Of a stretch of 64,000 bases of DNA, positions 27,508-28,899 are shown piece by piece. The stretch covers positions 186,001-250,000 of the forward strand of contig MTLY02000002.1 of assembly GCA_002011035.2 (NCBI GenBank). Direction: 5' to 3'. The translations under genes were made by a program, and so were the position numbers. Within the stretch, counting starts at the first letter, position 1. Each line of letters begins with the position of its first letter. The notes beneath the pieces are model-generated. The model had not been told where the DNA came from and ran no database searches. It saw only the letters and a program-made list of their open reading frames with translations. Origin of the DNA: Candidatus Hecatella orcuttiae (lineage in GTDB: Archaea > Thermoproteota > Bathyarchaeia > Hecatellales > Hecatellaceae).

Positions 27508-28899
27508 TCATGGTTTTTGGAGGCCTAGGTTTTCGAGTTCTTTCCACACTTTCTGGTAGATGGCCTGCCACTCCGGGGTGGGTTGGAGGGTTTTGAGGTC
27601 GGTGCACTGGGGGAAGCTGAGCCCTTTTGGGGGGCGGCGGAGGCGGTCCTCGTAGCGGGGCAGCAGCGCCTTCACCAGCTCGCAGGCCTCCCCCCGCCTG
27701 AGGCCCGCCGAGGCCTTGACCACCTCCGCGCAGAACCTGTTCTCCAACCCGCTGGCATAATCAGGAAACCTACAACCCGTAGGACGAGTGCCGAAGCCTG
27801 AAGCGCAGCCTGAAGCAGCATCACAAATTTCGAAGGCAGCTGTCTCGTAGAGAAGCATGTCCGTGCAGGGGCCGGCTGTTTGAGTGACAACCCCGGTGAT
27901 GATCGCGTGCGTGTTCAGAGTTTGAGCTTGCCGGCTGATGCTTTGCGCCCAGAGGGCTTCCCTTCCACAGTTGCCCAAGTATCTTAAGTCCAAAGTTGCA
28001 ACATCACCGTAGGTTCCCATGTGTGTCGCCATGTGCAAAATGAAGGCAGCTATCGCCTCCAAGGCGGCGCCTTCCGGTGAACCTGCATAGCCTCCGATCA
28101 TAGAGTGGTATCCAGGCTTGATCATGGCTCCGCAGGTGAGAGCATGAGCTGTCTTATGTAGCAGTTGGTAGCTTGTCACCAGAGGGTTCACAAGAAGGGG
28201 AATAGCGACGGTTAACGTCGGGTTAAACCCCTCAGGCATTCCCAGCCCGCCGAGCTGCCCGTACTCGGTGGGACTGGCTTCGGGTCCTTGAACAGGCATT
28301 CCCACCCTGTTCGCCCTCCTTAAGGCTTCCTTTATCAAGGCAGCTTCATAGGCTCCTAGCAGAGTTTCATAGGGGGTTCGGGCTCTGGGGCGGCGGCCCA
28401 GTATCGTGGCGGGGACTCCTCCGGCTATGATGTCGATCACCCGATATTGGGCGATGCTCTGCATGAGGGGGATGTACAGCTCCTCTGAAATCTCCAGCCC
28501 AAGGGGCGCCATTATTGCCCTCGGCCTAGTCTTGTCCTCTGGCTTTCGGGCTTTCATCGTCACCCTGTTTGCACCCGCCCCCAACTGTAGTTCGCTGGGC
28601 GCCTCGGCTAACACCGTCTTCAGCTCATCTTCTGTGAAATTGATGACCCGTTTGGTGTCGGAGCAGTACATTCCGGTTTCCACGGCCAGCTCAAAGCCGG
28701 CTTTCCAAAAATCGTTGGCCAAACCGTCATCGGTGTTTACCGGGTTTTCCGGGTCGCAAACACCCTTAAGCCCGTATTTCTCCAGTTTCTCCCTAATCTT
28801 TCCCGGAAAGATCTTCAACTCCCAGTTTTTCTTATCAACCACAGGGCCTGTGTGGGCTCTATCCAGAACATCTAGGAACGTGACTTTCACGCAAACCAC
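27508..28899 (-). CDS. Monomethylamine methyltransferase (MtmB) homologue without pyrrolysine
   Basis: A 463-residue protein that matches MtmB end to end: WKAGFELAVETGMYCSDTKRVI, PYETLLGAYEAALIKEA, the FGGYAGG-like segment MIGGYAGSPEG, AGPCTDMLLYE and the C-terminal TPEWQAIYQKVWKELENLGL. In methanogen MtmB an in-frame UAG encodes pyrrolysine at about residue 202 in GMGV-Pyl-GPE. Here the same place reads GMPVQGPEAS, with Gln204 encoded by CAA. This parallels the split between Pyl-containing MttB and Pyl-free glycine-betaine relatives, and suggests a corrinoid-dependent methyltransferase for another methylated amine or related substrate. No corrinoid protein (MtmC), MtbA or activase RamA is adjacent. 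Family assignment is firm, substrate unknown. Confidence 0.85.
   Translation of the reverse strand: MVCVKVTFLDVLDRAHTGPVVDKKNWELKIFPGKIREKLEKYGLKGVCDPENPVNTDDGLANDFWKAGFELAVETGMYCSDTKRVINFTEDELKTVLAEAPSELQLGAGANRVTMKARKPEDKTRPRAIMAPLGLEISEELYIPLMQSIAQYRVIDIIAGGVPATILGRRPRARTPYETLLGAYEAALIKEALRRANRVGMPVQGPEASPTEYGQLGGLGMPEGFNPTLTVAIPLLVNPLVTSYQLLHKTAHALTCGAMIKPGYHSMIGGYAGSPEGAALEAIAAFILHMATHMGTYGDVATLDLRYLGNCGREALWAQSISRQAQTLNTHAIITGVVTQTAGPCTDMLLYETAAFEICDAASGCASGFGTRPTGCRFPDYASGLENRFCAEVVKASAGLRRGEACELVKALLPRYEDRLRRPPKGLSFPQCTDLKTLQPTPEWQAIYQKVWKELENLGLQKP

Follow-up and report, generated by a model that had tools for sequence, protein, structure and literature searches.

A pyrrolysine-free MtmB homologue of Candidatus Hecatella orcuttiae belongs to a separate clade of the family

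Described relatives of MtmB

MtmB1 of M. barkeri (1L2Q/1NTH) is a pyrrolysine (Pyl)-dependent enzyme that acts on monomethylamine. The first functional Pyl-free MtmB homologue was described in 2026 in the form of MtqB of Methanococcoides methylutens Q3c, which acts on tetramethylammonium (37 nmol/min/mg) and choline (42 nmol/min/mg) and slightly on monomethylamine (11 nmol/min/mg), and the tree published with it holds many uncharacterised Pyl-free homologues (PMC13044021). The Pyl-free MtmB homologue is thus already known as a kind, and the statement of an earlier note on this DNA that such relatives are not well described has been overtaken. MtgB and the other Pyl-free members of the MttB family share a general logic with this group, in that a Pyl-free methyltransferase works with a corrinoid protein and MtrH or MtbA, but they are defined by a different domain, PF06253. 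Pyl systems and Pyl methyltransferases have previously been reported for Bathyarchaeota (PMC5424206), as have mtmB, mtbB, mttBC and a nearly complete Mtr for one family of Bathyarchaeia (PMC8407382).

The gene considered here lies in a window of 64,000 nucleotides (contig MTLY02000002.1, positions 186,001 to 250,000) from Candidatus Hecatella orcuttiae, class Bathyarchaeia, whose genome amounts to 1.75 Mb in three contigs; the stretches sampled from the three agree in tetranucleotide make-up (r 0.93-0.99). The window protein resembles MtmB1 in homology over its full length, by extension in family fold, and presumably also in using an MtxC corrinoid partner, whereas it differs in lacking Pyl, Glu229, Glu259 and Gln333, in belonging to another clade and in having no adjoining MtmC gene. 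With MtqB it shares membership of the Pyl-free part of the family and a genome that also carries Pyl methylamine systems. However, MtqB comes from a methanogen, is encoded alongside MtqC and, by its published description, branches near the Pyl-containing MtmBs, whereas the window gene has no adjoining corrinoid gene and the clade to which it belongs, here called clade A, does not branch there. Proteins of the same clade, 50-51% identical and likewise Pyl-free, are encoded in Ca. Terraquivivens and an Aigarchaeota MAG (L009-L012), where they have His at the Pyl site and belong to an operon with a RamA-like protein, MtxC, an MtaB-like protein and a BMP importer.

The window gene and its Pyl site

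The Pyl-free MtmB-family methyltransferase gene, assigned by domain match and clade, occupies positions 27508-28899 of the minus strand and runs from a GTG start to a TGA stop, encoding 463 amino acids. The earlier claim of a full-length MtmB homologue is borne out, as residues 7-460 match the PF05369 profile at 279 bits (cut-off 25), from position 2 to position 450 of its 450, and residues 9-460 align with M. barkeri MtmB1 (1TV2/1L2Q) at an E-value of about 1e-60. PF05369 is the sole domain matched, PF06253 not being found in the protein; no NCBIfam model matched it, and a plasmid search returned no homologue. A structure prediction from a six-sequence alignment reached a mean pLDDT of 36.6. 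In the alignment with MtmB1, Gln204 stands opposite Pyl202 and is encoded by CAA at positions 28288-28290 of the minus strand (TTG on the plus strand), in agreement with the earlier note, which had glutamine in place of the UAG-encoded residue.

The departures from MtmB1 extend well beyond this codon. By alignment, and with coordinates counted on the minus strand, Glu229 is matched by Ile233 (28201-28203), Glu259 by Gly263 (28111-28113) and Gln333 by Val337 (27889-27891); these are the residues around Pyl to which, we assume from the MtmB structure papers, special roles belong, although our literature searches on the roles of Glu229, Glu259 and Gln333 found nothing. Thus the four positions read Q/I/G/V in the window protein and Pyl/E/E/Q in the Pyl-MtmB of the same genome. 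Just before the Pyl site, where GRPG is near-invariant in the family set (G195 in 54 of 55 rows, P197 in 51 of 55), the window protein has NRVG (residues 197-200, positions 28300-28311 of the minus strand, also aligned and counted), and the near-invariant K237 is replaced by V. At the Pyl site itself, 16 kinds of residue other than Pyl are seen among the 55 rows.

A TAG codon masked by sequencing or assembly error would be one way to explain the CAA codon, and the genome is indeed a draft in three contigs. Yet two bases separate CAA from TAG and Pyl is also missing in 10 of the 11 other PF05369 copies of the genome, so that a single read error is not credible, and the alteration of further active-site residues likewise speaks against a masked TAG, which we regard as exceedingly improbable. 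An enzyme that still acts on monomethylamine, with Gln204 standing in for Pyl, would fit the full-length homology, and Pyl-free MtqB does retain slight activity on monomethylamine. Against it stand the substitution of all three partner residues, the variety of residues accepted at the Pyl site and the presence in the genome of its own Pyl-MtmB, MtmC and pyl genes, and we consider it very unlikely; judged from sequence, the loss of Glu229, Glu259 and Gln333 makes the window protein an unlikely monomethylamine enzyme.

Clade A and its neighbourhoods

The genome holds 12 PF05369 genes, one a true Pyl-MtmB and 11 Pyl-free. The former, at C1:354k (contig and position), reads TAG in frame at the position of Pyl and adjoins tRNA-Pyl, pylS, pylB, pylC and pylD, the four encoded proteins each exceeding their curated cut-offs; the genome-wide search for pyl genes proposed in the earlier note is thereby answered, and MtmC accompanies this copy as well. 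An in-frame TAG is also present in one of the four MttB genes and, as read from the sequence, in two MtbB genes. In the window, TAG terminates 15 of the 59 ORFs of at least 100 amino acids, so that it still seems to function as a stop codon although the genome decodes Pyl. A further Pyl-free MttB with its own MtxC lies near HyuA/HyuB-type (caprolactamase-like) and M24 peptidase-like proteins (L118:8103-16840, C1:104-113 kb). Across the class, PF05369 occurs in 20 of 257 genomes and PylS exceeds its cut-off in just three of them, the lower-scoring PylS matches seen in most genomes being counted as other synthetases. No PF05369 protein was found in seven relatives from the same family and order. 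Three other genomes of the class (G213, G214 and G216) each yielded at least 12 PF05369 candidates at first look, six of which were scored in each.

In a tree of 55 rows from which the Pyl column was left out, 11 rows form clade A with a support of 100: the window protein, the copies at C1:10k, 181k, 186k, 512k, 531k and 532k, and the four Terraquivivens/Aigarchaeota proteins. The Pyl-MtmB of the genome pairs with that of M. barkeri, away from clade A. Joining the window protein to this pair is rejected (AU p of about 1e-123), as is a single in-genome expansion giving rise to all 12 copies (AU 1.9e-6). Pyl and non-Pyl sequences are one change apart on this tree. The earlier note had read the protein as an MtmB with Pyl exchanged for Gln and had proposed a phylogeny of the family as a check, naming placement outside the MtmB clade as evidence against that reading; the protein does fall outside the Pyl-MtmB clade and, with Glu229, Glu259 and Gln333 also gone, the reading was abandoned. 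The companion suggestion of a new methyl donor fares better, a donor other than methylamine being likely. With good confidence, the window protein can be classed as a corrinoid methyltransferase that lacks Pyl and belongs to a distinct clade within the MtmB family. The presence of clade A in two archaeal lineages suggests that it spread between them by horizontal transfer; for comparison, SecY of the window's genome is 54-56% identical to that of five of seven class relatives, 48-49% identical to that of the other two and 46-49% identical to that of Terraquivivens.

The window gene is flanked by housekeeping genes, with neither an importer nor MtxC, nor any other corrinoid gene of the MtqC type, beside it. 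MtxC does adjoin the clade-A copies at C1:10k and C1:181k, and in other Bathyarchaeia Pyl-free MtmB adjoins MtxC and in some cases also RamA and MtrH. The four Terraquivivens/Aigarchaeota genomes share one gene order, RamA-like, MtxC, MtmB, MtaB-like and then a four-gene BMP importer, and these four loci may go back to a single event. The MtaB-like protein directly 3' of MtmB in these genomes matches NF040651 in L009 (540 bits, under the cut-off of 720), and MtaB was not found in the window's genome; given this protein, the substrate of the Terraquivivens operon may be an O-methyl compound.

Importers are also linked to clade A in the window's own genome, where four of its six genes for BMP binding proteins are found no more than 5 kb away from clade-A genes (binomial 2e-5 genome-wide and 9e-4 within C1, in a post hoc test on six genes of one contig). 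Among solved structures, 7X0R, AtzT (guanine Kd of about 110 nM) and 3S99 (adenine modelled) come closest to these binding proteins. Of eight mtmB-linked binding proteins, seven retain the Trp/Trp sandwich and Ser97 of AtzT, which are missing from the two BMP proteins encoded far from mtmB; the polar contacts that AtzT makes with its ligand are not conserved in the linked proteins. Ligands of the BMP family are varied. Near 512k, 531k and 532k lie genes for SsnA/TRZ-type amidohydrolases, two carbamoyltransferases, a dihydropyrimidinase, a carbamate kinase and PreA/PreT-like proteins, all recognised by family, with SsnA and other amidohydrolases scoring under their curated cut-offs.

A possible substrate and route for the methyl group

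This linkage and context point to N-methylated purines or similar flat nitrogen rings as clade-A substrates, and a purine-like substrate is a real, if still tentative, possibility. For the window copy, which lacks an operon, a purine substrate would be carried over from its kin. A more speculative extension is that clade A comprises corrinoid-dependent N-demethylases for methylated nucleobases, such that a non-methanogenic, Pyl-decoding archaeon would import methylated purines, for instance from RNA turnover, and draw carbon or energy from their methyl groups, while the products of the adjacent amidohydrolase and pyrimidine/purine genes would break down the ring. Our searches found no precedent for a corrinoid-dependent removal of methyl groups from methylated nucleobases or methylxanthines, and clade A, its importer link and its nucleobase context are new as far as the literature was searched.

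A quaternary-amine methyltransferase resembling MtqB, in which the space emptied of Pyl would hold tetramethylammonium, choline or betaine with a methyl group pre-activated by the positive nitrogen, is less probable but deserves serious consideration: MtqB alone among the Pyl-free MtmB homologues has a demonstrated function, and a missing Pyl is what an already quaternary substrate would lead one to expect. However, MtqB is described as lying near the Pyl-MtmBs, where clade A does not branch, and the importers next to clade A look like purine-binding ones. It is also conceivable, though rather unlikely, that the window gene is a redundant, decaying or non-enzymatic paralogue kept through recent gene conversion from C1:10k. 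Positions 27509-27792 of the minus strand form a 284-bp tract near-identical to the 3' end of this closest paralogue (C1:10080-10363; two exactly matching segments, of 41 and 237 bp, separated by a short gap), whereas DNA identity elsewhere in the gene is about 60%; the tract is either a gene conversion or an assembly artefact. A conversion-like tract, a missing operon partner and departures from near-invariant motif residues would all suit decay. On the other side, the frame of 463 codons is intact, GC3 is close to that of the paralogue (0.655 and 0.668, respectively), and over the 368 codons outside the tract dN is 0.40 and dS 1.93 (near saturation), a ratio of about 0.2 that suggests purifying selection on the window gene.

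The explanation that we prefer overall, while holding it with some reserve, is that of a Pyl-free clade-A methyltransferase that uses an N-methylated purine-like donor and an MtxC supplied in trans and passes the methyl group to coenzyme M or tetrahydromethanopterin. This proposal of an activity, a substrate, a partner and a direction of flow builds on the computed family and clade, the absence of Pyl and of the residues that accompany it, the downstream genes, the importer linkage and the similarity of binding pockets. The earlier note had stated that no corrinoid partner lies nearby, which is correct for the neighbourhood but not for the genome, where about 14 corrinoid proteins of MtxC size are encoded and DxHxxG is present in all 13 corrinoid proteins examined. 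Nor does the acceptor remain as open as that note left it: the search it proposed for MtmC, MtbA and RamA found MtmC, a single RamA encoded next to a URO-D (MtbA-like) protein, and other MtbA-like candidates, and there are in addition two MtrH proteins and a complete-looking MtrE-D-C-A/F-H operon in which MtrA is fused to an MtrF domain (C2:107551-112574, L124).

In the proposed route, N-methylated purine bases or like flat nitrogen rings would enter through BMP-type ABC importers, and the window enzyme would take a methyl group, most likely from such an N-methylated compound and not from monomethylamine, and hand it to an MtxC-type corrinoid protein. The most plausible partner in trans would be the MtxC adjoining the closest paralogue (C1:11457-12143). 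RamA would re-reduce the corrinoid, and MtbA-like or MtrH proteins would carry the methyl group to coenzyme M or tetrahydromethanopterin, with Mtr connecting the two. As Mcr alpha was not found in the genome, the methyl groups would probably be used for carbon or energy and not for methane.

Among the Pyl-free MtmB homologues, a function is known for MtqB only. With 11 Pyl-free copies beside one Pyl-MtmB, in neighbourhoods that point to a class of substrate, this genome opens the question to direct testing. The PF05369 set also informs the evolution of Pyl, in that a single change between Pyl and non-Pyl on the tree is combined with a site that otherwise varies freely. Should nucleobases prove to be demethylated by clade A, nucleic acids bearing methyl groups would represent an anaerobic source of methyl groups.
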